Source: Chloroflexota bacterium (GTDB lineage Bacteria > Chloroflexota > Anaerolineae > Anaerolineales > Villigracilaceae). Taken from it: a DNA stretch of 64,000 bases. Both the position numbers and the translations under genes were made by a program. Each line of letters begins with the position of its first letter. Within the stretch, counting starts at the first letter, position 1. Below the pieces are notes generated by a model. The model was not told the origin of the DNA. It saw only the letters and a list, made by a program, of their open reading frames with translations, and did no database searches. Where the stretch lies: the NCBI GenBank assembly GCA_021787595.1, contig JAJYLQ010000003.1, positions 1 through 64,000 of the forward strand, in the 5' to 3' direction. Shown in pieces: positions 9,038 through 56,819 of the stretch.

Positions 9038-9406
9038 GTGAAGACTTCCATGCTCCCGATCAAAACCAAAGTTCATCCAACTGGTTTTCCGCCCGTATCG
9101 CGAACCTTGCCGCAGGCGATTAAGCGCATTGCGTCAGAACTCAAGCCTGAAAAAATTATCCTGTTTGGTTCGTACGCGTACGGAAATCCCACGCCGGACA
9201 GTGATGTGGATTTGCTTGTGGTCATGGAAACGAACGGAACATACCGTGAGCGGTATTTAGCCGTATCGCGGTTGCTAAGGCCGCGACAATTTCCTGTGGA
9301 CATTGTTGTCAAAACTCCAAAGGAAATTGAAAAAGCACTAAGAACCAACAGCTTCTTCACCCGCGAAATCTATGCAAAAGGAGTGATGCTGTATGAAAGA
9401 AGATGA
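9038..9406 (+). CDS. MNT-domain nucleotidyltransferase (antitoxin of HEPN/MNT pair)
   Basis: The protein of about 120 residues carries the minimal nucleotidyltransferase signature LFGSYAYGNPTPDSDVDLLV near residue 42, with both metal-binding Asp residues of the S-D-x-D pattern, and a third acidic position in FPVDIVV near residue 88. MNT antitoxins usually AMPylate and inactivate an adjacent HEPN toxin. It overlaps the HEPN gene by 14 bp. Start may be GTG 9038 or ATG 9050; no ribosome site is evident, and TAAAAT at 9026-9031 would make the transcript nearly leaderless. Confidence 0.8.
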   Translation: MKTSMLPIKTKVHPTGFPPVSRTLPQAIKRIASELKPEKIILFGSYAYGNPTPDSDVDLLVVMETNGTYRERYLAVSRLLRPRQFPVDIVVKTPKEIEKALRTNSFFTREIYAKGVMLYERR

Positions 9407-9779
9407 TCCACTCGCATGGGTCGCAAAAGCCGAGGAGGATTGGGATACTGCAAATACCTTGATGAAGCGAAAGAAGCCTTATAAAGGAATTATCTGCTTC
9501 CATTTCCAACAGTGCGCGGAGAAGTATTTGAAATCAATCCTTGTCCACAAAGGGTCTGCATTTCCAAAAACACATGATTTGACCGCCTTGAGCAAAATGT
9601 GCGAGGAAGTTGGCATTCTGGTCGGTATGGATGAAGATAATTTGGATACCCTGTCAGGGTATGCGGCAACAGCAAGATATCCTGGAGCAGAACCATTGTC
9701 GCAAGACGTACGCGAGGCGCTTCAAACCACCCGCGCTATCCGCAAATTTGCGCAGACGTTTTTGGGATTGAAGAAATAA
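9393..9779 (+). CDS. HEPN domain protein (toxin of HEPN/MNT pair)
   Basis: A 128-residue helical protein with the HEPN family layout: AWVAKAEEDWDTA at the start, CFHFQQCAEKYLKS near residue 35, and FPKTHDLTALSKMCEE near residue 58. HEPN partners of MNT proteins are often RNases; here the classic R-x4-6-H catalytic motif is not clear, so activity is uncertain. Translation is coupled to the MNT gene by overlap. The next gene, a TIR-STAND protein, begins 22 bp later with its own ribosome site, so all three may form one transcription unit. Confidence 0.75.
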   Translation: MKEDDPLAWVAKAEEDWDTANTLMKRKKPYKGIICFHFQQCAEKYLKSILVHKGSAFPKTHDLTALSKMCEEVGILVGMDEDNLDTLSGYAATARYPGAEPLSQDVREALQTTRAIRKFAQTFLGLKK

Positions 9780-9801: not shown

Positions 9802-12800
9802 ATGACTGACGGCCATTGTTTCATAAGCTACTCCACCGCAGACGCGCTGGAGTTTGCGCGCAGACTTGCCGACGAACTCGAAGGCGGCGAAGACAAGTTC
9901 ATTGATGTTTGGTTCGACAAACGCAATATTGATCCCGCCCGCGATTGGGACGATCAAATTGTCGAAGGGATTCGCTCGTGTAAGTGCATGGCTTTTGTGA
10001 TGACCAAAGACAGCACTTCTTCTGGCTCGATGTGCAAGAACGAATGGACATGGGCGCTGAAATATAAAAAGGTTGTCATTCCTTTGCGCTTGCAGAAAGA
10101 AGCCGAACAACCTTTTGGACTCGGCAATCGTCAATGGATTGATTTCACGGGAAATTTTGAACACGGCCTGGCAAAGTTACGCAAGTTCTTGCGCGAGATG
10201 GATTCGCCCGAAGGCATTTTGCAATCCATGAAAGACCGATTGGCAGATGCAGAACGCGACTTGCGCCGAGCAAAAAATGAAGAAGCAATTCGTATTCAAT
10301 CTGAAATTGACGAACTAAAAAAGCAAATCGAAATCCAACAAAAGATTGTTGATAATCCCAAAGCTGCGGAAAATCAAACCAAGAAAAATATCGAAGCGGG
10401 ATTGGAGCGCGAGCGCCAGCCAGAGAAACCTATTGCAGGTAAAACCGAAACCAAATTCATCAACCCACCGCCGGGGGTCGCGCCAAATTATTTCCAAGAT
10501 CGCTTGATCGAGAACAAACAGATCGTTGATTTTCTCAACAATGATTCACAGCGCTTGCTGACGATTGTGGGACGCGCGGGCGTTGGAAAAACTGCGATGA
10601 TCTGCCGCATGTTGAAGGGTCTGGAAAGAGGCGTGCTGCCCGATGATCTCGGCGAGATGAAGGCAGATGGCATCGTCTATTTGAGCGAAGCAGGCAGTCA
10701 TCGAGTCAATTTTGCAAACATCTTCGCCGATTTGAGCAAACTCCTGTCGAAAGAAACCGCCGAGCGACTGGAAAGTTTGTATAAAGAGCCGAAGACTTCC
10801 ACAGGCGATAAGATGCGCGCTTTGCTGGATGCCTTCCCGCACGGACGCATCGTTTTACTGCTGGATAACTTCGAGAACCTGATCGACTCCGAAGGCTTGA
10901 ATATCCGTGACAGCGAATTGAGCGATGCCTTGAGCGCGCTGCTCAGCGCGCCGCAACACGCGGTGAAAGTCATCCTGACCACGCGCATCGCGCCGAAAGA
11001 TTTGCCGATGGTCGAGCCGGGCAGGCAACATCCTTTGAGCCTTGATGAAGGACTCGAATCGCCCTACGCCGAAAACGTTTTGCGTGAAATGGATGCCGAT
11101 GGTCGCGTGGGACTCGAGACCGCATCAGATGAATTGCTCGGCAGAGCGCGCGTGAAGACGCGCGGCTACCCGCGCGCCTTGGAAGCCTTATTCATGATCC
11201 TTTCCGCTGACCGTTACACCACGCTGGAAGAAATCCTGAACACCAAATTGCCGGATGAAGTTGTCCATGCTCTGGTTGGACAAGCCTTCAGCCGCCTCGA
11301 CCCAACCGCGCAAAAGGTGATGCAGGCATTGGCAGTCTTCGACCGACCGGTTATTCCTGCTGCAATTGATTTCTTGTTACAGCCTTTTGTCCCAAGCATT
11401 GACAGCGCACTTGTGTTGAATCATTTGGCAAGTATGCACTTTGTGCGCCGCGAGGCTGGACGATATTATTTGCATCCTGCTGATCGCGAGTATGTTTATA
11501 GTCTGATACCGGAAGGCGAAAAGGAACTAGAAAAAGTAGAATCCAAATTGGTGCCAGGACAGTTTATACGCAAGCCACGCACAGATTTTTCACATTACGG
11601 ATTACTTGAACATGCCGCAGATTATTTTTGTGAAGCTCAAAAACCATTCGGTGAATGGAAAAAACTGGACGATATTGCCGCGAATTTGGCAGCATTTGAC
11701 TTGCGGTGTGCCGCAGAGGATTATGGCCGCGCAATGATGTGTTTAGATCCTATTCTTGAACCTTTGCTTTGGTGGGGACATTCCCGACTGCTGATCGGAA
11801 TACTTCCACAAGTACAGAGTAAATTTAAATCCGATTATGCGGGGGCTCCATATTACTTGGGGTTAGCATACATTTATACAGGCAGGTTAATGGAAGCCAT
11901 TGTCTTATATCAGAAATATTTGGATAATGCCAGTGAGGTTGTGAATAGTCAACATAGAAGCGCGTTCCTTAATAATCTAGGTCTTGCATATGCTGCTTTG
12001 GGTGACACCAAAAAAGCCATCGAATTCTATGAGCAGGCACTTGAGATTGAGCGTAAAGATGGATGGCATCGCGACGAAACAGTGACATTGGGTCATCTTG
12101 GAAATGCCCATGCTGGTTTTGGTGAGGTAATCAGAGCCATCGAATACAACGAACAGGCATTGGTCATTGCCCGCGGGAATGGAGAACGTAGGGGCGAGGG
12201 AAATGCCCTCAATAATCTTGGAAATCGATATGCAGAATTAGGAGATTTACAAAAAGCGCTCGAATTTCATAAAAAGGCATTATTGATTCGACGCCAAGTT
12301 AACAATAAATACGAAGAGGCATATACTCTTAGCAATATTGGCCTTGATTTATTAGGTTTAGAGGATTTTCAAAGAGCAAGAGATATATGCCTACGAGCAT
12401 TTCAGCTTGCCGTCGATATCTCAAATTATGCAGTGCAACTTGAAGCATATTTGGGGTTGACGCAAATCTATCTTTTCCAAAATGATTTAATCAATGCCCG
12501 CGCCACCATCGAAGCCGCGCTTCAATATGATGTGCCACAAATCAATCACAATGCAAGCACCCTGCACGGCATCATCGCCTTGCGGCAGGGAGATGGAAAC
12601 ACGGCACGTCAAGCCTTAACGCGTGCCAACGCTCAGGCAGATGAAATCCTTGCCAAAACGCCTGAGTATTATGATGCACTGGATGCGAAGGGGTTGGCGC
12701 TTTGTGGATTGTTGATTGTTGATTGGAGATTGAAGATTGACGATGAACAGAAAACCGCGGACGGTGTAGCGGATGACGGTCAACGGTCTACGGTCTATCG

Positions 12801-12951
12801 TCAACAAGCCATCGAAACCTTCCGCGCGGCGCGCAAGATCGCTCCACATGCGGGCATCGTCAAATCCGTGCTGCGGTTGTTCGATGAATTGGCAAAATGC
12901 GACGAAGACGGCGTGTTGAAAGACGTAAGAAACGCGGCGGAAGGAAAATAG
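9802..12951 (+). CDS. TIR-coiled coil-STAND NTPase-TPR protein, putative immune effector
   Basis: This 1049-residue protein has four parts. Residues 1-130 are a TIR-like domain ([18 protein letters not shown] at the start, [18 protein letters not shown]). Residues 135-200 are a charged coiled coil. Residues 230-520 are a STAND/NB-ARC NTPase with Walker [14 protein letters not shown], Walker [13 protein letters not shown], sensor strand VKVILTTRI and a GYPRALEAL motif. From about 640 on are TPR-type repeats ([20 protein letters not shown] and copies). Such proteins sense an invader with the repeats and oligomerise to activate the TIR, often an NAD-degrading enzyme. AGGAGG precedes the start. 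The C-terminal 80 residues contain repeat-derived sequence. Target and trigger are unknown. Confidence 0.8.
12712..12808. repeat. Repetitive DNA inside the TIR-STAND gene
   Basis: GATTGTTGATTGTTGATTGG-like tandem words are followed by GGACGGTGTAGCGGATGACGG and GTCAACGGTCTACGGTC words. These resemble the GGACGGT repeats inside the genes at 16.4 and 24.6 kb. The frame stays open and gives a polar, compositionally odd stretch between TPR-like helices. Confidence 0.5.
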
Positions 12952-17093: not shown

Positions 17094-17339
17094 ATGCCTG
17101 TCGAAGAAACTGTTCTCAAAGAGTTGGAAAATATTACCGGCACGGATGAAGTGCGAAAAAATCCCGACCTCGATCTCTTCGGCGAGAAAGTTTTGGATTC
17201 GCTCGGAACCGTCGAATTGATTCTCGCGTTATCGGAAGATTTCAGCATCGAGGTCACGCCGGGACAAATTGACCGCGAACTTTGGGCGACGCCGCGCAAG
17301 ATCATTGATTATTTCCAAGAGCGAGTCAAACAGCCGTGA
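17094..17339 (+). CDS. dltC: D-alanyl carrier protein DltC
   Basis: An 81-residue acyl-carrier protein. The phosphopantetheine site is Ser in KVLDSLGTVELILALSEDF near residue 38, and the IEVTPGQIDRELWATPRKI stretch matches DltC rather than fatty-acid ACP. DltC is charged with D-alanine by DltA and delivers it to the membrane machinery. It is first in the operon; its stop overlaps the GTG start of dltD by 4 bp. In most Firmicutes dltC is third or fourth, so its leading place is notable. Confidence 0.85.
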   Translation: MPVEETVLKELENITGTDEVRKNPDLDLFGEKVLDSLGTVELILALSEDFSIEVTPGQIDRELWATPRKIIDYFQERVKQP

Positions 17340-18553
17340 AGCGGTCGCCGCATCTGGTCTCAGCCGCCGCGGCGTTTTTGTTTTGCGCCATCGCCGCTGC
17401 GGGATTTAATCTCTACGCACAACATCTCGAACAACAGTACATCAACACCTTGAACACACTTGACCTTTCGCAGTTTGCAAACGGAAGCGCTTTGCAGCGC
17501 GCCGCCATCGAACAACCTGACCTGCTGACGCTTTACGGAAGTTCCGAAATTACGATGCTGAACACCAAGTACGAGGCTTCGGCATTCTTCGCAAAATATC
17601 CAACCGGCTTCGCGGTGTTCGACGTTGCCAACATGGGCGCCTCCGATCTGTCCATCGCCCAATCGCTGGCCGCGCTCGGACCCGATCTGCGCGGCAAAAA
17701 AATCGTCGTCTCGTTCACGCCTTCCACGGTCACGATGGGACCCGGCGGCGGAGTCAACGCCGACAATTACAACGCCAACTTTTCGGACCTGCACGCGAAC
17801 GAACTGGCATTCAGCTCTTATCTCAGCATGAAGACCAAACATCAGGCTGCGCTGCGAATGTTGAATTTCCCCGACTCATTGAAGAACGATCCGCTTCTGA
17901 ATTTTGCCTTGAACAATCTTGCAGATGATTCCACGGCAAATCAAATTTTTTATTATCTTGCATGGCCGCTTGGCAGACTGCAGATCGCGATGATTCGATT
18001 ACAGGATCACCGCGCGGTTGTCTCGTTCATGGCGCACCGCTCGCTCAAACCGGACGTGAAGCGGACTCCGTCAAACATTGACTGGACTTCGCTGATCGCG
18101 ACCGCGCGCGCTGAGCAGATCAAACAATCCGACAGCAATCCCTACGGCATTGACAACAGCCGCTGGCCGCAATACAGGAATTTGATGAAAGATCCATTGC
18201 CCACTGGATCGAGGGACGCAGCATTCATTCAACACGTTGACGAAGCCGCGGATTGGCAGGACCTCGATATCATGCTTCAAGTTTTGCAGGAACTCGGCGC
18301 AAAACCTTTGATTCTGGCCCGCCCGATGAACGTCCAGATTTGGGAAACGCTGGGCGTCTCGGAGCAAGCGCAAAATTTCTATTACCAGAAACTGCGTTCG
18401 GTTGCAGGACCGTATCACGTGCCGCTGGTTGATTTTCAGCAATACGGCACGGACAAATATTTCAGCATTGACATGGCTTCGCACACCAGCCGGGAAGGAT
18501 GGATTTATGTGGATCAAACGCTCGATGCGTTTTTTCATGGGCGTATACAATAA
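17336..18553 (+). CDS. dltD: D-alanine transfer protein DltD
   Basis: The 405-residue protein has an N-terminal membrane anchor (about residues 8-28) and an outward SGNH-hydrolase-like domain. LLTLYGSSEITMLNTKYEAS near residue 64 holds the nucleophile Ser of the G-S-S motif, and NMGASDLSIAQSLAALG follows as in DltD. Near the C-terminus, MASHTSREGW supplies the catalytic Asp/His region. DltD moves D-alanine onto the surface polymer. GTG start overlaps dltC; the 3' end overlaps dltX by 17 bp. Confidence 0.85.
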   Translation: MKRSPHLVSAAAAFLFCAIAAAGFNLYAQHLEQQYINTLNTLDLSQFANGSALQRAAIEQPDLLTLYGSSEITMLNTKYEASAFFAKYPTGFAVFDVANMGASDLSIAQSLAALGPDLRGKKIVVSFTPSTVTMGPGGGVNADNYNANFSDLHANELAFSSYLSMKTKHQAALRMLNFPDSLKNDPLLNFALNNLADDSTANQIFYYLAWPLGRLQIAMIRLQDHRAVVSFMAHRSLKPDVKRTPSNIDWTSLIATARAEQIKQSDSNPYGIDNSRWPQYRNLMKDPLPTGSRDAAFIQHVDEAADWQDLDIMLQVLQELGAKPLILARPMNVQIWETLGVSEQAQNFYYQKLRSVAGPYHVPLVDFQQYGTDKYFSIDMASHTSREGWIYVDQTLDAFFHGRIQ

Positions 18554-18671
18554 TCCCACCGGGCGCGTGGTTTTCCTCACGCTCTATTACCTTGCCATCA
18601 TCGCGGGATTGATCATCATGTACGGACGAGGTAATTTCTCCACGCCGAAGTTCATCTATCAGGGTTTCTAA
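18537..18671 (+). CDS. dltX: DltX-like membrane microprotein
   Basis: A 44-residue frame (48 if started at ATG 18525) with one membrane helix (VVFLTLYYLAIIAGLIIMYG) and the C-terminal end PKFIYQGF. DltX proteins are about 50 residues, have F-R-T-L-Y-Y-type helices and end in FIYNEF-like sequences, so the match in size, layout and tail is good. The C-terminal Tyr of DltX is reported to carry D-alanine between DltC/DltB and DltD. It overlaps the end of dltD. In Firmicutes the gene usually stands first; here it is third. Confidence 0.75.
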   Translation: MGVYNNPTGRVVFLTLYYLAIIAGLIIMYGRGNFSTPKFIYQGF

Positions 18672-18787
18672 AAAATTTGTGCTCATGCCGCCGTCTCAGC
18701 GGCGAGACGTGGCTCTCTTCCATGGCGCGCCATGCGACACCACCGAGAGCATAAACTTGTAAATCGATTTTGGATAAACGTGATTGT

Positions 18788-20251
18788 ATGGATTTGATCG
18801 AACGCATTGACCGCTGGAGTCGGCTCGCGCCGGATCGCATCGCGCATATCAGCGGAGGCCAATTACTCGATTACCGGGAACTCATCGCGCGTTCCAACGC
18901 GCTGGCCGCGCATTTAATTCAGACTCTCCCCGACGATCACTCGCCGGTTGCCGTGCTTGGACACAAAGAGCCGGAAATGTTGATCGGCTTCCTCGGCACG
19001 GTCAAATCCGGGCATCCTTACATCCCGCTGGATACTTCCCTGCCCTCGCAGCGCGTCGAGACGATCATCGAAACCGCAAAAGCGTCATTGCTATTAACGC
19101 CAGAAAAAATTCAATCAGCGATAAAAGAAACAACTACACCACCCATTACTATTTACCATCCAACGCTGGACGATGCCTGGTACATCATTTTCACGTCGGG
19201 AAGCACAGGCGAGCCAAAAGGCGTTGTCATCACACGCGGTTGTTTAGAGAGCTTCGTCGATTGGATTCTCGACGAACAAAATTTTATCGAAGCCAAAGAA
19301 ACATTTCTCAACCAGGCCCCGTTTTCTTTCGATCTCTCGGTGATGGATTTATATTCGAGCCTTGCCACAGGCGGAACGCTTTTCAGCCTGACGAAAGATC
19401 AGATCGCAGAACCAAAGTTGTTATATCAAACTCTGGCGAAGTCCAATGTCAGCGTTTGGGTTTCGACTCCGTCATTTGCAAGACTTTGTCTTGCGGAACC
19501 AACCTTCGCAGAAAGGATGATTCCAACGGCGCGCAAATTCTGGTTTTGCGGCGAGACGCTCGCGCCCGAAATCGCATCCGGTTTGCTCAATCGTTTTCCG
19601 AAGGCCGAAGTGTGGAATACGTACGGCCCGACAGAAGCGACGGTCGCGACGACGTCCATTCGAATCGATCAGGATATTTTGTCGCTCCATAATCCGCTGC
19701 CGGTGGGCCGCGCCAAGCCCGATAGCGAAGTCCAAATTCTGGTTGACGGGAATCCAGCCCCGGTCGGAGAACGAGGCGAGATCGTCATCGCCGGGAAAAA
19801 CGTCAGCATCGGTTATATCCATCGTCCTGATTTGACGTCGCGCGCGTTTTATGAAATCAATGGGATGCGCGCCTATCGCACCGGCGACGCGGGGCATTAT
19901 CAGGACGGCCTCTTGTTTTTCGATGGCCGCATGGATTTTCAAATCAAACTGCATGGTTATCGAATCGAAATTGGCGATGTGGAAGCCAACTTGCAGGCGC
20001 TGACCATCGTGCAGGATGCAATGGTTATCCCCGCCATGAAAAATGGTCAAGCCGATCATCTGGCCGCGTTCGTGATTTTGAAGACGCGTCCCAACGGATC
20101 AGACTTTGAAATCACGCGCGGACTCAAACGCGAGTTGAGCGAACGCCTGCCCGACTACATGATCCCGCGCAAATTTGTTTTTCTCGAAGGATTTCCGATG
20201 ACGACCAACGGCAAAGCCGACCGACGCAAATTAGCTGAGATGCTTCGATGA
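18788..20251 (+). CDS. dltA: D-alanine--D-alanyl carrier protein ligase DltA
   Basis: The 487-residue adenylating enzyme activates D-alanine with ATP and loads it on DltC. It shows IIFTSGSTGEPKGVVITRG (phosphate loop) near residue 136, VWNTYGPTEATVATT near residue 276, the YRTGDAG motif near residue 362 and TTNGKADRRKLAEML at the C-terminus with the catalytic Lys. DRIAHISGGQLLDYREL and the overall length match DltA. ATG 18788 is preferred over TTG 18770, but neither has a strong ribosome site. The 116-bp gap before it is the largest in the operon. Confidence 0.85.
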   Translation: MDLIERIDRWSRLAPDRIAHISGGQLLDYRELIARSNALAAHLIQTLPDDHSPVAVLGHKEPEMLIGFLGTVKSGHPYIPLDTSLPSQRVETIIETAKASLLLTPEKIQSAIKETTTPPITIYHPTLDDAWYIIFTSGSTGEPKGVVITRGCLESFVDWILDEQNFIEAKETFLNQAPFSFDLSVMDLYSSLATGGTLFSLTKDQIAEPKLLYQTLAKSNVSVWVSTPSFARLCLAEPTFAERMIPTARKFWFCGETLAPEIASGLLNRFPKAEVWNTYGPTEATVATTSIRIDQDILSLHNPLPVGRAKPDSEVQILVDGNPAPVGERGEIVIAGKNVSIGYIHRPDLTSRAFYEINGMRAYRTGDAGHYQDGLLFFDGRMDFQIKLHGYRIEIGDVEANLQALTIVQDAMVIPAMKNGQADHLAAFVILKTRPNGSDFEITRGLKRELSERLPDYMIPRKFVFLEGFPMTTNGKADRRKLAEMLR

Positions 20252-21420
20252 TTCCATACACCAGCTTTCTCTATTTTGGAGTTTCTCTCTACGTTCTCAT
20301 TCCGGCGTTGATCGCAGGTCTCTTCAAACGCGTTTGGAAAATTTGGCTTGTGCTGGCGACCATCGTGATGCTGGTCATCCAGTATTTCACCACACAAAAT
20401 ATCCTGCCAAATTTCGCGGTCAATGAACTTCTGCTGCTCATTGCGTACGCGGTCTTTCAGTGGCTGCTTGCCATCGTCTTTTTATTCATCCGCCGGCGCG
20501 GCAAAAGCCAGCCTGTGTTCTATGTGGCCGTCTTTTTGAGTCTATTGCCGTTGCTCGGCGCGAAGTTCATTCCGCTGTTCCAAGCCGATTATCAAATTTT
20601 CTTTTTGGGATTGTCGTACGTGAGCTTCCGCAGCCTGGACGTCATCATCGGCATCCACGACGAGATGATCCAGTCCGTGCCGCCGGTTCAATATCTCACC
20701 TATTTGCTGCTCTTCACGACGATCTCCTCCGGCCCGATTGACCGCTTCCGCCGCTTCAACGAAGACTGGAAGCGTGAGCGGACGCGCGACGAATTTCTGC
20801 TCGACCTCGACGGCGGCATCCACCGCATCTTCACCGGATTTCTCTACAAGTTCATCCTCGCCGCGCTGATCAAGCAATACTGGCTCGATCCCATGTCGCA
20901 AGGCACGAACATTTTACACATCGCGTCCTACATGTACGCGTACACATTCTACCTATTCTTCGACTTCGCCGGTTACAGCGCGTTCGCCATCGGGTTCAGC
21001 TACATCTTTGGAATCCACACGCCGGAGAATTTCAACCGTCCATTCCTTTCGCGCGACATCCGCGACTTCTGGAATCGCTGGCACATGACGCTGTCCTTCT
21101 GGTTCCGTGATCACATTTACAACCGCTTCGTTTTCACCGCACTCAAAAACAAATGGTTCAAGAATCGCTACACCGCGTCCTACATCGGCTACATCATCAC
21201 GATGGGATTGATGGGCGTTTGGCACGGTACGGCATTGCATTACATTGTTTACGGTTTATATCATGGAGTTTTATTGGCCGCCACCGCCTGGCTGAACCAA
21301 CGCTACAAAGGCAATCGTCTGCTCAATGACAAAGGTTTCGGCTGGCAGGCCGCGTCCATTTTCATCACGTTCCATTTGATCGCATTTAGTTTCTTGATCT
21401 TCTCTGGACGATTGTTCTGA
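20248..21420 (+). CDS. dltB: MBOAT acyltransferase DltB
   Basis: A 390-residue membrane-bound O-acyltransferase with about ten membrane segments. The MBOAT core is visible as FFDFAGYSAFAIGFSYIFGI near residue 236, RDFWNRWHMTLSFWFRDHIY near residue 272, and the catalytic His in GLMGVWHGTALHYIVYGLYHG near residue 315. DltB passes D-alanine from DltC across the membrane. It overlaps dltA by 4 bp (ATGA) and ends the operon. Confidence 0.88.
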   Translation: MIPYTSFLYFGVSLYVLIPALIAGLFKRVWKIWLVLATIVMLVIQYFTTQNILPNFAVNELLLLIAYAVFQWLLAIVFLFIRRRGKSQPVFYVAVFLSLLPLLGAKFIPLFQADYQIFFLGLSYVSFRSLDVIIGIHDEMIQSVPPVQYLTYLLLFTTISSGPIDRFRRFNEDWKRERTRDEFLLDLDGGIHRIFTGFLYKFILAALIKQYWLDPMSQGTNILHIASYMYAYTFYLFFDFAGYSAFAIGFSYIFGIHTPENFNRPFLSRDIRDFWNRWHMTLSFWFRDHIYNRFVFTALKNKWFKNRYTASYIGYIITMGLMGVWHGTALHYIVYGLYHGVLLAATAWLNQRYKGNRLLNDKGFGWQAASIFITFHLIAFSFLIFSGRLF

Positions 21421-24210: not shown

Positions 24211-25398
24211 CTAATCCAACATTTGTTTCGTTTTTTGTTTACCGCGCGAGCGCATCACATCCAACAAACGCGGGATGATTTCCGAATACATCTTATACCA
24301 AAACGGATTGGGCGCATAATCCCACGCGCCGAGCGTGCGGACGACCTGCCCGCCCAGCCCTTCCTTGAAGCGGAACACGCCCCACATCGAATCAGACTCA
24401 TTGAATTCATCCGGCGCGCCCCAAAGATCATAGACTGAACAGCCATGCGCTTTTGCGCGTTTCATCGCTTCCCATTGCAAAAGATAATTCGGCATTTTCT
24501 CGCGGTGCGCTTCACGCGACATGCCGTAAACATAATAGGCGCGCCCGGCAAAATAAAAGAGAAAGATTGCGGCGACGGGTTCACCATCAACTTGAGCAAT
24601 CAGCGGTTCAGCAAATGGCGGACGGTGGACGGTGGACGATTGACGGTCTCCGGTCAACGGTCTATTGTCCATAAATTGATTCCAAACCGTTTGGTAGTAA
24701 TCTTCATTGCGAATCACAAATCCATCACGCACGGATGTTTCTGCGTACATTTGGTAAAGCATCGGCAAATCATCTTTCGTTCCGATGCGAACTGTCACGC
24801 CCTTTTTCTCGGCGAGGCGGACGTTATACCGCGTCTTCTGTTTCATGCGCGCTAACATTTCATCTTCGGATGAAGACAAATCGATCAAAACTGTATTCTT
24901 GAATTGGATTTGATCCGACGAGAATCGCCAGCCTCTGCGTTTCAATTCGGACATCACGGCCTGGCCGCCGTTATCTTCGCGCGAATCTTCGCTTTCAGGG
25001 ACTCCCGTTCCCAGCGCAACATCGGGATCAAGTTTCAAAAAGATCGCGCCCTGCTTTTTCGCGAAGGATTGCAGATCGTCCAGAACACGATTACGAAGCG
25101 CCTCATTTGTCCAATCGAGCAGCGGCCCTTTCGGCGCGTACAAGATGCAAAGCCGCGCGGCGAATCCGCGCGAAAGGACGGTGCGCTTCAAGATTAGGCA
25201 AGTGGCAATACAGTGATCAGTAATCAGTGACCAGTGATCAGTGACTGGTGACTGGTCACTGATTACTACAAACTGATCCTCCGTCCACACGGCGTAGAAC
25301 GGCTTCCATCCATACTTCGCTTTGACTTGTGCCCATTCATACGTTTGGAGGAAATGAGGATGGGGCAATTCAGAAATAATTTCATCCCAGGAACTCAT
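24211..25398 (-). CDS. FemAB-like peptidoglycan bridge aminoacyltransferase (first copy)
   Basis: The 395-residue protein resembles FemX/FemAB enzymes, which add amino acids from aminoacyl-tRNA to the lipid II side chain. It has HFLQTYEWAQVKAKYGWKPF near residue 15, MKQKTRYNVRLAEKKGVTVR near residue 186, a central GNAT-like fold, and LLQWEAMKRAKAHGCSVYDL with LWGAPDE near residue 310. Two polar stretches look like repeat insertions: residues about 44-64 (ATCAGTG repeat at 25206-25268) and 243-260 (GGACGGT repeat at 24618-24670). It abuts its paralogue with no gap (TAA then ATG). Substrate amino acid unknown. Confidence 0.8.
   Translation of the reverse strand: MSSWDEIISELPHPHFLQTYEWAQVKAKYGWKPFYAVWTEDQFVVISDQSPVTDHWSLITDHCIATCLILKRTVLSRGFAARLCILYAPKGPLLDWTNEALRNRVLDDLQSFAKKQGAIFLKLDPDVALGTGVPESEDSREDNGGQAVMSELKRRGWRFSSDQIQFKNTVLIDLSSSEDEMLARMKQKTRYNVRLAEKKGVTVRIGTKDDLPMLYQMYAETSVRDGFVIRNEDYYQTVWNQFMDNRPLTGDRQSSTVHRPPFAEPLIAQVDGEPVAAIFLFYFAGRAYYVYGMSREAHREKMPNYLLQWEAMKRAKAHGCSVYDLWGAPDEFNESDSMWGVFRFKEGLGGQVVRTLGAWDYAPNPFWYKMYSEIIPRLLDVMRSRGKQKTKQMLD
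24618..24670. repeat. GGACGGT-type repeat inside first FemAB-like gene
   Basis: GCGGACGGTGGACGGTGGAC is followed by GATTGACGGTCTCCGGTCAA and CGGTCTATTGTCC. The encoded polar stretch (RPLTGDRQSSTVHRPP) interrupts the usual sequence between two conserved helices, and the frame stays open. Confidence 0.6.
25206..25268. repeat. ATCAGTG-type repeat inside first FemAB-like gene
   Basis: AGTGATCAGTAATCAGTGAC and CAGTGATCAGTGACTGGTG are followed by the inverted words TGGTCACTGATTAC. It encodes VVISDQSPVTDHWSLITDHC, not typical of FemAB proteins. Related copies lie at 26158-26193 and 34344-34378. Confidence 0.6.
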
Positions 25399-26391
25399 TT
25401 ATCCGCCCTCGCGTCCTGCCAGACGCCGCAAGTAAAATTTATAAAGCAGCGGGCTATATACTTTATCCAGCGCTTGCGCGGCGCGCTTCAACTCGCCGCC
25501 AAAGCCGCGCTTGAAGCGATAGACTCCCCACAAACCATCGCTGCGTTTTTCGAATTGCGCTTCGAGAATCGATTCGTCTTCATCAGGCACGCCCCACAGA
25601 TCGTATTCTTCGCAGCCGCGCGCTTTTGCCCAGCGCATCGCTTCCCACTGAAGCAAATACGTCGGCATGCGATTGCGTTCTTCATCATTGGACGCACCGT
25701 AGACATACCAGGCGCGCCGTCCGCGTGCGAAGACCATCAAAGCTGCCAGCGGTCTGTTTTCAAATTCGGCAACAAGCAATTCGCATATCCCGGCTGGATG
25801 AAATAATTCATAGGCGCGGCGATAATATTCGAGGGAATGAACGCCAAAACCATCGCGTCCGCCAGTAATAAGCATCATTTTATGAAAGGTATCAATATCA
25901 TTCCATGAGCGGACGGTCACGCCCTTCTTTTCCGCGAGCCGAACGTTGTAGCGGCATTTCTGTTTCATACGCGCAAGGATTTCGTCTTCGCTCCCGCAAA
26001 TGTCAACAATAATCGTACGAGGAGGTTGAATGTTGTGCTTTGAAAGGATGAAAGATGAAAGATGAAGGATGAAATTATCCTGCCAAGCATCAGGCTCGAT
26101 CTTCAAGAATATAGCATGACGCTTTTTGCAGGCTAAATCCACTTCCGTCCAAAACTGCCCACTACTCACTGATAACTGATCACCGAACACTGGCTTCGGC
26201 ATGTATCCGATTGTAAAACCCAGCGGCAGTTTGCGGAAAAGAATCTGTGCGCCGGCATCGCCGTTGATCACGCGAACGGCTTCCCATCCAAACGCGGATT
26301 TCAATTCGCCCCATTCGCCGGTCTGCAAAAGATGGGCGTTGGGATGATGTCGAAGAAATTGATTCCAATCGGCGAGGGAAACTTCGGGCAT
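25399..26391 (-). CDS. FemAB-like peptidoglycan bridge aminoacyltransferase (second copy)
   Basis: A 330-residue paralogue of the next gene, sharing HLLQTGEWGELKSAFGWEAV near residue 20, MKQKCRYNVRLAEKKGVTVR near residue 140, and YLLQWEAMRWAKARGCEEYD near residue 255. Start 26391 gives a sensible N-terminus; the longer open frame upstream runs through a MITE copy. Two repeat-derived stretches appear: one near residues 66-78 (GDQLSVSSGQF) and one near 105-118 (FILHLSSFILSKHN). Two adjacent Fem-type enzymes suggest a bridge of at least two residues added in order. Confidence 0.78.
   Translation of the reverse strand: MPEVSLADWNQFLRHHPNAHLLQTGEWGELKSAFGWEAVRVINGDAGAQILFRKLPLGFTIGYMPKPVFGDQLSVSSGQFWTEVDLACKKRHAIFLKIEPDAWQDNFILHLSSFILSKHNIQPPRTIIVDICGSEDEILARMKQKCRYNVRLAEKKGVTVRSWNDIDTFHKMMLITGGRDGFGVHSLEYYRRAYELFHPAGICELLVAEFENRPLAALMVFARGRRAWYVYGASNDEERNRMPTYLLQWEAMRWAKARGCEEYDLWGVPDEDESILEAQFEKRSDGLWGVYRFKRGFGGELKRAAQALDKVYSPLLYKFYLRRLAGREGG
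26041..26075. repeat. GATGAAAGATGAAAGATGAA repeat inside second FemAB-like gene
   Basis: Near-tandem GATGAAA/GATGAAG words over about 35 bp. It encodes FILHLSSFILS on the minus strand, an odd hydrophobic insert between conserved elements. Confidence 0.5.
26158..26193. repeat. ATCAGTG-type repeat inside second FemAB-like gene
   Basis: CCACTACTCACTGATAACTG followed by ATCACCGAACACTGG, the same word family as 25206-25268. The frame stays open. Confidence 0.45.
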
Positions 26392-26445
26392 AAGCAATGT
26401 TGGCAAGTTTACAAGTTGAAAAGTTTGAAGGGGTGCACTAAAAGG

Positions 26446-26538
26446 TTGATACTGTTGGCGAAATCGGGAATTGCGCCTGCTTACCCGTTTAGCAGGCACA
26501 CATTTACGGATGGAAAATGAATTCGCCAACAGTATCAA
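26446..26538. mobile_element. 93-bp MITE, copy 1
   Basis: Terminal inverted repeats TTGATACTGTTGGCGAA and TTCGCCAACAGTATCAA are 17 bp and perfect. AGG directly precedes and follows, a possible 3-bp target duplication. No coding capacity. It is the same length as copy 2 at 26690 and appears identical to it. It lies in the 448-bp gap upstream of the second FemAB-like gene and extends that gene's open frame. Confidence 0.8.
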
Positions 26539-53287: not shown

Positions 53288-54997
53288 TTATTTGTTTTCC
53301 GCTTCCAATTCTTTTAAAAATTTTTCTTTATTGGCTGAACGCGCCGTCTTCCCACTGGACGTTTTCAAAATCCACTTCGGCCCGACGACTTTTACATAAC
53401 GCAAAGCGATGGCGGAATTCTTCGTGACGTGACGGCGAATTGCATCGGCAATTTCCTCCTGCTGCGCGGCATCTTCCGAATCGACTTCAGCGATGATGAC
53501 CACATCTTCCGTCCCGGCGGCTTCGTCAAAAATGCCGAAAGCCACCGACCGTCCCGCGTGAACGCCCGGCACTTCATACGTCAGCGATTCCAAATCCTGC
53601 GGATAAATATTTTTTCCGCCGACGATGATCATATCCTTCTTGCGTCCCGTGACAAACACTTCGCCGTTTGCAACATAACCAAAATCGCCGGTCAAATACC
53701 AGCCGTCGAGAAATACCTTCTTCGCAGCATCGGCGCGATGGTAATAACCGGTCAACATGCAATCGCTCTGTAACGCGATTTCGCCAACGATTCGCTCGGC
53801 GACATCCCTGCCATGTTCATCCAAAATGCGGACGCGCGTATTCGACAGCGGCCTGCCGGACGACAACATCTTCATCGCGGGACGATTATCTGCTGCCGGA
53901 CGCGCCGCGCGTTCGGACATGAACGCTTCCCGGTCAATTTCCTCGACTTGTGGCGGGCGTGACAGATCAGACTGCGTCACCCCGAAGACGTTTTCCGCCA
54001 TCGCGTACGATGTTTGCAGCGCGTTCAATTTCAGGCCGTACGATTTAAATCGCTCATAGAATGCATGATGACTTTCCCATCGCACCGGCTCCGAGCAATT
54101 GATGACCGCCCGCCACGTGGATAAATCCACGCCTTCCAGCGAACGGTCGCGGATTTTTTGCGCGCAAAAGTTGTAAGCAAAATTGGGAAGCCACGAAAGC
54201 GTGCCTTTGTATTCCGAAACCGATTGCAGCAAACGATACGGCGCGCGCACCCAATCGAACGGCGAACTCAGAACCAGCGGCACACCCGAAAGAATCGGCA
54301 TGAGAAATCCGGCGATCAAGCCCATATCGTGATAAAGCGGCAGCCACGAAACGATCACATCGTTATCATTCAAATTCAGGGCGCGGCCGTACGCATCCAA
54401 TTGATTGAACACAGCCTGATGCGACAGCGCCACGCCTTTTTGCAAACCGGTCGTGCCGGAAGAATGCTGCAATAAAACGATATCATCCGGCGAACGTTTC
54501 ATTCCCGATAAATTTCCGAAATCGGGATCGGATTGCGGCGCAAGTTGATTCGTGACGATCACGGCTCGGACGAAATCGTTTTTTTTCAACGCCTCGCGGA
54601 CATCCTGTTCAAATTCGGGATACGTCACGACCGCGGCTGGCTTTGTCACCGAAATCAAAGCAGAAAGATCGGCGCGATAGCGTTCCGGCGAAAGTTTTTC
54701 CGTCAGGAACGGCATGATGGACGGAATCGCACCATGCAGAATCGCGCCCCAGAATGAATGGATCAAATCTTCGCCATGCTGAAGAATCAAAATGACAACT
54801 TCGCCCGCTTGAATTCTTTCGCGTTCGTATGTACGCGCGTACGCGTTCGCTCCGCGTAATAATTGGCGATAGGTAATTGGCAAATCGGGTTTGCCCGAAT
54901 GCTGGAGATAAACCGCGGCCCGCTCCAAAGCTTGCCCTGAGCGAAGTCGAAGGGTCCGCGCGTGAAGCGACTGAAGCCGCTCCGAAAGAGTCGTCAT
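53288..54997 (-). CDS. Fatty-acyl-AMP ligase-like adenylating enzyme (FAAL)
   Basis: A 569-residue adenylate-forming enzyme. It has LLQHSSGTTGLQKGVALSHQ near residue 175, SWLPLYHDMGLIAGFLMPIL near residue 218, ALQTSYAMAENVFGVTQSDL near residue 315, WYLTGDFGYVANGEV near residue 422 and LKTSSGKTARS near residue 550. The W-L-P-x-Y-H-D-M-G-L stretch is characteristic of fatty-acyl-AMP ligases, which load acyl chains on an ACP. Residues 15-24 (TLRLRSGQAL) come from a dispersed repeat (54931-54953). It overlaps the ACP gene by 4 bp. In this cluster it takes the place of DltA. Confidence 0.8.
   Translation of the reverse strand: MTTLSERLQSLHARTLRLRSGQALERAAVYLQHSGKPDLPITYRQLLRGANAYARTYERERIQAGEVVILILQHGEDLIHSFWGAILHGAIPSIMPFLTEKLSPERYRADLSALISVTKPAAVVTYPEFEQDVREALKKNDFVRAVIVTNQLAPQSDPDFGNLSGMKRSPDDIVLLQHSSGTTGLQKGVALSHQAVFNQLDAYGRALNLNDNDVIVSWLPLYHDMGLIAGFLMPILSGVPLVLSSPFDWVRAPYRLLQSVSEYKGTLSWLPNFAYNFCAQKIRDRSLEGVDLSTWRAVINCSEPVRWESHHAFYERFKSYGLKLNALQTSYAMAENVFGVTQSDLSRPPQVEEIDREAFMSERAARPAADNRPAMKMLSSGRPLSNTRVRILDEHGRDVAERIVGEIALQSDCMLTGYYHRADAAKKVFLDGWYLTGDFGYVANGEVFVTGRKKDMIIVGGKNIYPQDLESLTYEVPGVHAGRSVAFGIFDEAAGTEDVVIIAEVDSEDAAQQEEIADAIRRHVTKNSAIALRYVKVVGPKWILKTSSGKTARSANKEKFLKELEAENK
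54931..54953. repeat. CTTCGACTTCGCTCAGG-type repeat in the FAAL gene
   Basis: TTGCCCTGAGCGAAGTCGAA followed by GGG on the plus strand encodes the peptide LRLRSGQA on the minus strand. The repeat is short, in frame, and near the N-terminus. A related word lies in ftsY at 58556-58583. Confidence 0.55.
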
Positions 54998-55242
54998 TTG
55001 GATTGTCTGCCCTGGATCAGGTTTGCCAATTGATCGAGCGTATCGAACGTCTGCGCATTCAATTCCGTGTCATCGAGATGAACGCCGAATTGATCTTCGA
55101 CGAACAAAGCCAGGTCCACCAGACTGAACGAATCAACGAGCCCGCTGGAGATCAGCGGCTCATCGAAACGGATCTGGCGTTTGGGTTGTTTCAATACAGA
55201 TGACGAAATGTATTCGCCAATGGTGGTTTGAAACTCATTCAT
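54994..55242 (-). CDS. Acyl carrier protein
   Basis: An 82-residue ACP. The phosphopantetheine Ser is in LISSGLVDSFSLVDLALFVE near residue 38; the helix after it and FDTLDQLANLI near the end fit the fold. It overlaps the FAAL gene start by 4 bp (ATGA), so the two are translationally coupled, and it follows the MBOAT gene by 30 bp. It corresponds in role to DltC. Confidence 0.82.
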   Translation of the reverse strand: MNEFQTTIGEYISSSVLKQPKRQIRFDEPLISSGLVDSFSLVDLALFVEDQFGVHLDDTELNAQTFDTLDQLANLIQGRQSK

Positions 55243-55272
55243 AAGAAATTTCCTTCTTGAGTAAATCTTGTG

Positions 55273-56688
55273 TTACGCCATCCCAAATAATTTTTGCATC
55301 GCCTGCCATGCAATCGCGGGCGTGGACAACGTAAAGAACAACCAGCCGAGGGCCACAAAATTGAACGTCAGGAAAATACCAGCAAGATTCAAAATTGTTT
55401 GACCACTTCGCGTCCGCGTCCACGCGGGCAGGCGCGGACGAATGAAGTCGCTCCAACGGTTTTGGATGAACAACCCAGCGCCGTGCCACAATCCCCATGC
55501 CACAAAACCGGCCGCGATCCCGTGCCAGAGGCCGATCAAGACCATCGTGCTGATTTGCGTCACAAGGATGATGATCCAAACCGGCATGGAAATTTTGCCG
55601 GAGCGCAGCACGCGCGTCAGCGGATTAAAGAAATACGCGCGAAACCATTGCGTCAGCGTGATGTGCCACGAATTCCAGAATTGGGTCAGGTTGGGCTTGA
55701 GATACGGCGAAAGAAAATTCTCCGGCAGGCGGATTCCCATCAGCCGCCCGATGCCGATGGCGATATCGGTGTAACCGCTAAAGTCAAAATAGATACGGAA
55801 CGTGTACGCGTAAAGGAACAGCCACAACCATCCCGCGTGATTGACCCGCGCCACCAGCACATCGCTGATCGAGATGACCGCCAGCAAATCCGCGACCACG
55901 AATTTCTTGAAGAGGCCGATGAGGAGCCGCGTCCCGGCATCCAGCCAATCTTCGCTTGCGAGCGGAAGCGGCAGGCGCAGCTCTTTGATAAATCGCTCGA
56001 GGCGGTCAATCGGGCCGGCTGTGAAGGACGGGAAGAAAAGAACATAGTTGACATATTCCGCCAGCGTCACGGATGGGAGGCGGCCCGTCTGGCGATCCCG
56101 AATCGTGTGAAGCAGGCGGAAGGCCAGATAGGAAAATCCAAGCCACGCAAATGGAATCGATGTGTCTCCGGTGTTGCCTGCCCGAAGCGCCGCGACAGCG
56201 TCCCTTGCCTTTTGCAGTAAAACAGGCGATTTCAAAAATACGAAAATCAGAACGATTCCAATAAATGCAATGAACTGCCAAAAACGATTCGCCCTCTGCC
56301 AACGCGCCAAGCTAAAAGCGACCGCCGCAATTGCGATGATTACGATTAATGTGTAGCGAAGGTTCGGCGTGTCGGCTGTGAAAACCTGCGTCAGCCTGAA
56401 GGAATGATTCAGATCCATCAGCAGAGCAGCGCCAACCATCACTGCCAGCGCGGGCCAGTTTTGTTTCCAGCCGCGTGTTTCTGGAATGGAAGTCAATGCC
56501 CAGGAAAAGACCACGATTGCCAGCGTTGCAAGCGGAAGCCAATAAACAAGCGTACGATAAGGCTCCGCCGGTTGGAGCCAAAATACTGCAAACGTGCTGA
56601 CCGCGAGCAAAGCCAGCGAGCGGCCTTTATGCAATTGACCAATCATGATTGCAGCGATCGTTAAGATTGCAATTTGCAGGATCGTCAT
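55273..56688 (-). CDS. MBOAT family membrane O-acyltransferase
   Basis: A 471-residue membrane protein with about 12 segments. MBOAT features: FPSFTAGPIDRLERFIKEL near residue 213, YFDFSGYTDIAIGIGRLMGI near residue 298, FWNSWHITLTQWFRAYFFNP near residue 336 and the catalytic His in MVLIGLWHGIAAGFVAWGLW near residue 380. Its length and first segments are closer to AlgI/DltB-like enzymes that acylate surface polymers than to eukaryotic members. Its start overlaps the microprotein stop by 1 bp. It would move the acyl group of the ACP to a surface acceptor. Confidence 0.83.
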   Translation of the reverse strand: MTILQIAILTIAAIMIGQLHKGRSLALLAVSTFAVFWLQPAEPYRTLVYWLPLATLAIVVFSWALTSIPETRGWKQNWPALAVMVGAALLMDLNHSFRLTQVFTADTPNLRYTLIVIIAIAAVAFSLARWQRANRFWQFIAFIGIVLIFVFLKSPVLLQKARDAVAALRAGNTGDTSIPFAWLGFSYLAFRLLHTIRDRQTGRLPSVTLAEYVNYVLFFPSFTAGPIDRLERFIKELRLPLPLASEDWLDAGTRLLIGLFKKFVVADLLAVISISDVLVARVNHAGWLWLFLYAYTFRIYFDFSGYTDIAIGIGRLMGIRLPENFLSPYLKPNLTQFWNSWHITLTQWFRAYFFNPLTRVLRSGKISMPVWIIILVTQISTMVLIGLWHGIAAGFVAWGLWHGAGLFIQNRWSDFIRPRLPAWTRTRSGQTILNLAGIFLTFNFVALGWLFFTLSTPAIAWQAMQKLFGMA

Positions 56689-56819
56689 TAAAAGCCCTGA
56701 TAGATCCAGGTCGGCGATGTATCAATGGTGAAGACGACCAGCGCAATCAAAATCAGCGCCAGCATCAAAGCCAGAAGATTTTCGCGGTTGAAAATGGCGT
56801 GATGGATTTTCTTCCACAT
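56688..56819 (-). CDS. DltX-like membrane microprotein before the MBOAT gene
   Basis: A 43-residue frame too short for routine calling. It has a basic start (MWKKIHHAIFNREN), one membrane helix (LLALMLALILIALVVF) and ends TSPTWIYQGF. The tail IYQGF is identical to that of the dltX product at 18537-18671. AGGAAG lies 7 bp before ATG 56819; ATG 56843 would add 8 residues but has no ribosome site. TAATG overlap with the MBOAT start indicates coupled translation. By analogy its Tyr may carry the acyl group. This protein and role are inferred from layout, not from any search. Confidence 0.7.
   Translation of the reverse strand: MWKKIHHAIFNRENLLALMLALILIALVVFTIDTSPTWIYQGF

Follow-up and report, generated by a model that had tools for sequence, protein, structure and literature searches.

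The window, the whole stretch of DNA analysed here, spans 64,000 nucleotides of contig JAJYLQ010000003.1 (positions 1 to 64,000, forward strand; assembly GCA_021787595.1) from a member of the Anaerolineales in the phylum Chloroflexota. On its minus strand lies a cluster of four genes whose products resemble those of the Dlt system, with an activating enzyme that looks like a fatty-acyl-AMP ligase (FAAL). In the direction of transcription, the genes are:

56688-56819, minus strand: DltX-like microprotein of 43 aa, starting at an ATG with AGGAAG upstream
55273-56688, minus strand: DltB-like MBOAT of 471 aa (PF03062, 2.1e-19; TIGR04091, 214.9 bits)
54994-55242, minus strand: acyl carrier protein (ACP) of 82 aa with a D-S-F phosphopantetheine site (PF00550 PP-binding, 1.8e-6)
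53288-54997, minus strand: FAAL of 569 aa (AMP-binding, 6.2e-47; best NCBIfam model FAAL)

A preliminary description had reported four tightly packed genes for a microprotein, an MBOAT, an ACP and a FAAL-like ligase, and the coordinates, overlaps and Pfam domains agree with it. The microprotein and MBOAT genes share 1 nt (TAATG), the MBOAT and ACP genes are 30 bp apart, and the ACP and FAAL genes overlap by 4 nt; an in-frame ATG further out is an alternative start for the microprotein, extending it to 56843. The roles match DltX, DltB, DltC and DltA one to one, as that description also proposed. The microprotein has a single hydrophobic stretch, positively charged on its N side, and its C-terminus reads S-P-T-W-I-Y-Q-G-F, sharing the end I-Y-Q-G-F with the window's own DltX (see below). 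It matches no Pfam family above cut-off and gives no match to PF12459 (DltX).

With the MBOAT as query, a search of 151 genomes from the window's order found a family scoring at least 279.9 bits in 73 of them (some members being partial, at contig ends), with all other scores at 164.4 bits or below; the 72 places other than the window's own were fetched. A microprotein ending P-x-W-[ILV]-Y-Q-[GAS]-F stands directly 5′ of the MBOAT at all 70 of these loci that have upstream sequence, the remaining two beginning at a contig end. In a second set of 80 named loci, the best of 345 relatives, which overlaps in species with the order set and is not independent of it, 74 loci fit the strict pattern; of the other six, a single locus departs from it at the end (FLYEGF), another is masked by N, and the microprotein is missing at four. 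The expectation that the microprotein would be conserved next to the MBOAT in related genomes has therefore been borne out, by 70 of 70 loci in the order and 74 of 80 named loci. In the search pattern, P and Y were obligatory and the first motif position could be W, F, Y or L; among the 127 distinct microproteins collected, W and Y are invariant, I and Q are kept in 125 each, G in 124 and F in 126. Outside the part on which the pattern selected, an R-E-N-x-x-A stretch is near-invariant as well (E 125, N 123 and A 124 of 127). A chance open reading frame was considered and is ruled out by the background rate: the pattern occurs 72 times in the 2,100,488 six-frame codons of the 72 loci. Of these occurrences, 70 are the microprotein itself, and a different MBOAT's tail accounts for one of the remaining two. 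The hydrophobic core has a mean hydropathy of 3.0, and the mean net charge is +1 on its N side and -1 on its C side, a pattern which, under the positive-inside rule, would put the conserved tyrosine outside the membrane, at its outer face. By analogy with DltX, the microprotein is presumed to be an acyl-tyrosine shuttle.

The MBOAT of the window matches a single NCBIfam model, DltB TIGR04091, at a score below the cut-off of 375 bits, and its PDB matches at E values up to 0.001 are to DltB only. The histidines of its two WH pairs, H342 and H389, are invariant in 29 sequences, H389 aligning with the WHG histidine of DltB. Members of this family have no C-terminal shuttle tail. We considered whether the motif might instead sit on the family MBOAT's own tail and rejected this: a loose form of the pattern occurs in 25 of the 72, always as Fx-Y-xx-L and never at the chain end, and the window MBOAT reads FNFVAL at that site, with no tyrosine. 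Other MBOATs of the order are built differently. Among 22 of them (from 20 stretches, hand-picked from about 60 non-family places in the order search), 19 bear aromatic-x-Tyr-x-x-Phe on their own tail; the remaining three comprise one that ends NIYKNF, a DltB belonging to a dlt cluster (L283) and one without the motif. No small open reading frame ending in the motif was found within 700 bp of any of the 22, the DltX of L283 lying further away and being recognised by PF12459. In an unrooted tree of 39 MBOATs, the family (16 sequences) and DltB (2) stand together across a branch (100/97) from the other 21. In this sample, then, the two kinds of MBOAT that occur with a carrier protein are those with a detached shuttle. 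If confirmed, the system would point to detached shuttles accompanying carrier-protein donors (Dlt and the present system) and fused tails accompanying acyl-CoA donors (as in PatA).

The cluster in the window holds no DltD-like partner, as the preliminary description noted. Its alternative of a shorter scheme, working without a DltD counterpart, does not stand: an SGNH gene is present in all 73 genomes with the MBOAT, and in the window genome it lies on contig C34 (83438-84529), followed by a gene for a 212-aa lipoprotein and with the GDS serine and the histidine kept. In most relatives, the gene lies downstream of the MBOAT; it has about 370 codons and encodes a membrane-anchored protein with one N-terminal helix and a GDS-S/A-x-W motif. 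A profile search located it behind the MBOAT in 68 of the 72 order stretches. The four stretches without it (three of the window's genus and G038) come from genomes that all hold the gene elsewhere, although in one of these (G125) its two parts lie at the ends of two contigs. Across 53 SGNH sequences, the GDS motif, Ser92 and His345 do not vary. An AF2 model of one member (L182, 53 sequences) has a mean pLDDT of 92.6. Foldseek returned weak matches with this model (best E 1.8e-4), a DltD chain (3bma_F) coming second with a low TM-score of 0.40. With VIA, four DltD entries gave Z 13.2-14.1 over 274-283 residues, the longest alignments among the matches listed; CgnD gave Z 14.7 over 215 residues, and further SGNH enzymes reach equal Z values over 165-226. 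The predicted fold of the SGNH protein looks DltD-like. At the level of sequence, the Pfam DltD family PF04914 had no match up to E 1 in four SGNH proteins, including that of the window genome, and a PDB sequence search with the SGNH family gave chance matches only.

A second SGNH-fold lipoprotein often follows the first SGNH gene (for example L182:9706-10632 and L036:10760-11686). All 38 sequences of it read G-D-C at the nucleophile motif, and it may for that reason use a cysteine; the D and H of its DxxH motif are kept in 35 each. Its AF2 model has a pLDDT of 83.6 and finds TesA-like SGNH hydrolases as the best Foldseek matches. The profile of this protein had no match in the window genome, in a search run without a positive control.

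The best NCBIfam model for the ligase is PRK09192 (FAAL), at 357.7 bits and below the cut-off of 600 set for this subfamily model (NF006624). Among its best 25 of 107 NCBIfam matches, the top ten are FAAL or long-chain ligase models, except for one from non-ribosomal peptide synthetases (NRPS) or polyketide synthases (PKS), and the DltA model is absent. Of the solved structures, 3pbk (a fatty acyl-adenylate ligase) is the closest; next comes 3kxw, which is titled saframycin Mx1 synthetase B and which we take to be a FAAL. The alignment is continuous in both, but with 4-coumarate-CoA ligases it is interrupted around profile positions 331-370, the region where the FAAL-specific insertion is presumably located. 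In EcFAAL, residues W224, M231 and F279 block the CoA pocket and P226 is a conserved proline (accessible text of PMC8460268); these align with W218, M225, F273 and P220 of the window ligase, all four invariant in 22 sequences. The W-L-P-x-Y-H-D-M-G-L motif, which the preliminary description had read as a FAAL signature, contains three of these four residues (W, P and M). That description had also left room for a ligase of amino-acid type or unrelated to the ACP; by sequence it is FAAL-like, and it adjoins the ACP. It would be expected, from its family, to form acyl-AMP and to load the ACP rather than CoA. The ACP scores 23.8 and 21.3 bits against DltC models with cut-offs of 68 and 52.35, and its best NCBIfam model is an ornithine-lipid synthesis ACP (40.1 bits, cut-off 130). 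At the start of the window's FAAL gene (54931-54953), an in-frame insertion encodes LRLRSGQA, which is missing from 21 aligned relatives; the DNA of this insertion resembles an intergenic repeat and occurs once in the window.

Across the 151 genomes, the MBOAT and the SGNH gene occur together in 73, the MBOAT alone in none, the SGNH gene alone in two (75% and 68% complete) and neither in 76. For the MBOAT and the FAAL (family cut at 700 bits or more, next score 401.5), the corresponding counts are 69, 4, 6 and 72, and all three genes occur in 69. These counts and their Fisher P values are uncorrected for kinship, and in the genome searches for FAAL and SGNH, as in the phylum search, only part of the first-look candidates was scored in many genomes. 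Among 400 genomes of the phylum, the MBOAT family reached 490 bits or more in 33 (counting G011, where the gene is in two pieces), none of them more distant than the window's class; the next score was 261 bits. The titles of the 80 best named loci, kept from 345 relatives, all refer to Chloroflexi, Anaerolineae or taxa within. A screen of 72,556 plasmid records gave 91 with a match to the MBOAT at 1e-20, of which one covers at least 80% of its length. This is a 212-kb plasmid of Leptolinea sp. HRD-7 (Anaerolineae). It carries the microprotein, ending PLWIYQGF, and the MBOAT (BCY19582.1, BCY19583.1), with the lipoprotein upstream of them, and the annotation calls all three hypothetical; no gene for the first SGNH protein was found in the stretch of it that was examined. 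The gene set has so far been found in one class of Chloroflexota only, and is common there. A lipoprotein of 125-165 aa, mostly some 600 to 150 bp upstream of the microprotein, was seen at 57 of the 72 order loci and 56 of the 80 named loci; it was not found in three stretches of the window's genus (L032-L034), and the one member tested matched no Pfam family above cut-off.

We think it likely that these genes form a relay of the Dlt type adapted to acyl groups that are fatty (or similar and non-amino), one which probably carries fatty chains across the membrane onto something at the cell surface. The earlier proposal of a machine that loads a chain other than D-alanine and passes it through ACP, MBOAT and microprotein gains support here, with the microprotein kept and the ligase FAAL-like and next to the ACP. 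In such a relay, the FAAL would adenylate a free acid and load it onto the holo-ACP of the cluster, and the acyl-ACP would then dock at the cytoplasmic face of the DltB-like MBOAT. Using its conserved histidine, the MBOAT would transfer the acyl group at the outer face to the tyrosine in the microprotein's W-I-Y-Q-G-F terminus. From there, the membrane-anchored SGNH protein would take it on its GDS serine and deliver it to a hydroxyl outside the cytoplasm, the likeliest bearer of which is a glycan or some other polymer of the envelope. The fatty nature of the cargo is suggested by the family of the ligase, and the acyl-tyrosine and acyl-serine intermediates are proposed by analogy with DltX/DltD and PatA/PatB; acyl-tyrosine is reported in PatA and described for DltX in the accessible text of PMC12148441. 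The topology and the surface polymer as acceptor are likewise conjectural.

Several observations weigh against this reading. The aspartate expected three residues before the invariant histidine is not conserved in the SGNH protein (S in 37, T in 11 and D in 3 of 53). The first residue of the microprotein motif is W in 127 of 127, as opposed to the F of FXYXXF, with the tyrosine and the final aromatic residue kept; and since only the last 10 residues align in a profile comparison with DltX, for which just two DltX sequences served, common descent is no more than a possibility. No microprotein was found at four of the 80 named loci (L207, L234, L235 and L240); two of these, L234 and L235, are each the second copy in their assembly, where the first copy (L173 and L174) does carry it. 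A FAAL is present in 46 of the 72 fetched stretches (in three cases on the other strand, in two truncated where the contig stops) and an ACP downstream on the same strand in 54. The four genomes with the MBOAT and no FAAL, and the six with the reverse, include G040 and G118 (99% complete). In G145, the only FAAL of the family adjoins a tailed MBOAT (ending FIYQGF) and a protein judged SGNH-like by eye (L276, 1-4026), with no ACP seen between FAAL and tailed MBOAT, the ACP remaining with the microprotein cluster; from this arrangement, one FAAL may feed two acceptor systems. Further solved relatives of the ligase include McyG and polyketide or NRPS loading domains, and FAALs accept substrates broadly, their chain length being unpredictable with confidence (accessible text of PMC11837247).

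The last two points also favour a neighbouring explanation, possible if rather unlikely, in which the relay is the same and its cargo is a short, branched, aromatic or hydroxylated acid, the FAAL fold reporting only CoA-free activation. The known MBOAT-SGNH systems move acetyl or D-alanyl groups, as far as the accessible text of PMC12148441 goes, which fits a small cargo. What speaks for a fatty acid instead is the run of FAAL and long-chain models heading the ligase's matches, together with a fatty acyl-adenylate ligase as the nearest solved structure.

We regard as improbable a further explanation, that the FAAL and ACP work in a separate pathway (for an aminolipid or a lipopeptide) and are mere neighbours of an MBOAT that has a different acyl donor. 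The resemblance of the ACP to ornithine-lipid carriers agrees with it, as do the counts at the 59 named loci where 5.5 kb or more of downstream sequence was available (a plus-strand FAAL at 40, an ACP at 40), and the genomes in which the FAAL is separated from the MBOAT by 14 kb (G125) or 33 kb (G038), or sits on a different contig. Yet the genes keep company across genomes (69:4:6:72), and distant FAALs retain their partners: the ACP in G125 and G038, and the SGNH protein as well in G038. The ACP-FAAL pair of G125 is on the opposite strand to the MBOAT, and its outer neighbours are the same as in the window.

A complete dlt cluster lies 33 kb away, as the preliminary description had stated. 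It occupies 17094-21420 on the plus strand in the order C-D-X-A-B, and all five proteins exceed their model cut-offs:

17094-17339, plus strand: DltC (model 79.2 bits, cut-off 68)
17336-18553, plus strand: DltD (model 170.8 bits, cut-off 150; Pfam PF04914, 174.7 bits)
18537-18671, plus strand: DltX (PF12459, 31.2 or 32.1 bits, cut-off 25)
18770-20251, plus strand: DltA (model 570.9 bits, cut-off 559.85)
20248-21420, plus strand: DltB (model 446.3 bits, cut-off 375)

That the minus-strand cluster is itself a diverged dlt still moving D-alanine, as its DltB-like MBOAT, one-to-one roles and shared I-Y-Q-G-F end might suggest, is very improbable and we reject it, given this true dlt cluster in the same window, a ligase that is FAAL-like and not DltA, scores that fall short of the Dlt models, four SGNH proteins with no DltD Pfam match, and PF12459 above cut-off in 3 of 151 genomes (a count that may miss some DltX) versus 73 with the MBOAT family. 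In control genomes, PF12459 was above cut-off in only 2 of 14, and in G000 it was so only at the true DltX.

Elsewhere in the window, a nucleotidyltransferase and HEPN gene pair (9038-9779) is likely an MNT/HEPN toxin-antitoxin module. Beside it, a gene for a 1049-aa protein with TIR, NTPase and TPR domains (9802-12951) is a possible defence gene. Two FemAB-family proteins are encoded in tandem at 24211-26538.

The system shares with Dlt an adenylating ligase, a carrier, a DltB-like MBOAT, a separate microprotein with an aromatic-x-Tyr-x-x-Phe end and a membrane-anchored SGNH protein, whose predicted fold looks DltD-like. It differs in its FAAL-like ligase, in an ACP, microprotein and SGNH protein that fall outside the DltC, DltX and DltD models, in the W in place of F in the motif, in the position of the microprotein gene directly 5′ of the MBOAT and in the SGNH protein without Asp at His-3. 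With PatA/PatB-type systems it has in common an MBOAT, an SGNH partner and, with W at its first position, a tyrosine hexapeptide; PatA uses acetyl-CoA and bears the motif on its own C-terminal helices (accessible text of PMC12148441), whereas here there are a carrier and a separate microprotein. FAAL-ACP pairs of lipopeptide and polyketide pathways, in the portions of the literature available to us, likewise pass a fatty acyl group from FAAL to ACP, but the neighbours here are the MBOAT, the microprotein and the SGNH protein (NRPS and PKS genes were not searched for). We found no description of such a system in the open-access literature, subscription papers being mostly beyond the search. In the accessible text of PMC12148441, other bacterial MBOAT pathways outside Dlt are without a DltX-like microprotein and a carrier protein, and the present system, unlike those, has both.

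Within its order, the system is commoner than Dlt as measured, at 73 versus 3 (by PF12459) of 151 genomes. To our knowledge, little is known of the surface chemistry of the Anaerolineae. It is about an even question whether the fullest version of our proposal holds, namely that this is the fatty-acid counterpart of Dlt and the second system with a separate shuttle, in which long chains would cross the membrane as acyl-tyrosine on a 43-residue protein and be handed by a DltD-like enzyme to an envelope polymer, so that many Anaerolineae would be lipidated. If it is true, the acyl-tyrosine relay would extend to fatty acids, and a lipid modification of the Anaerolineae envelope would be predicted.

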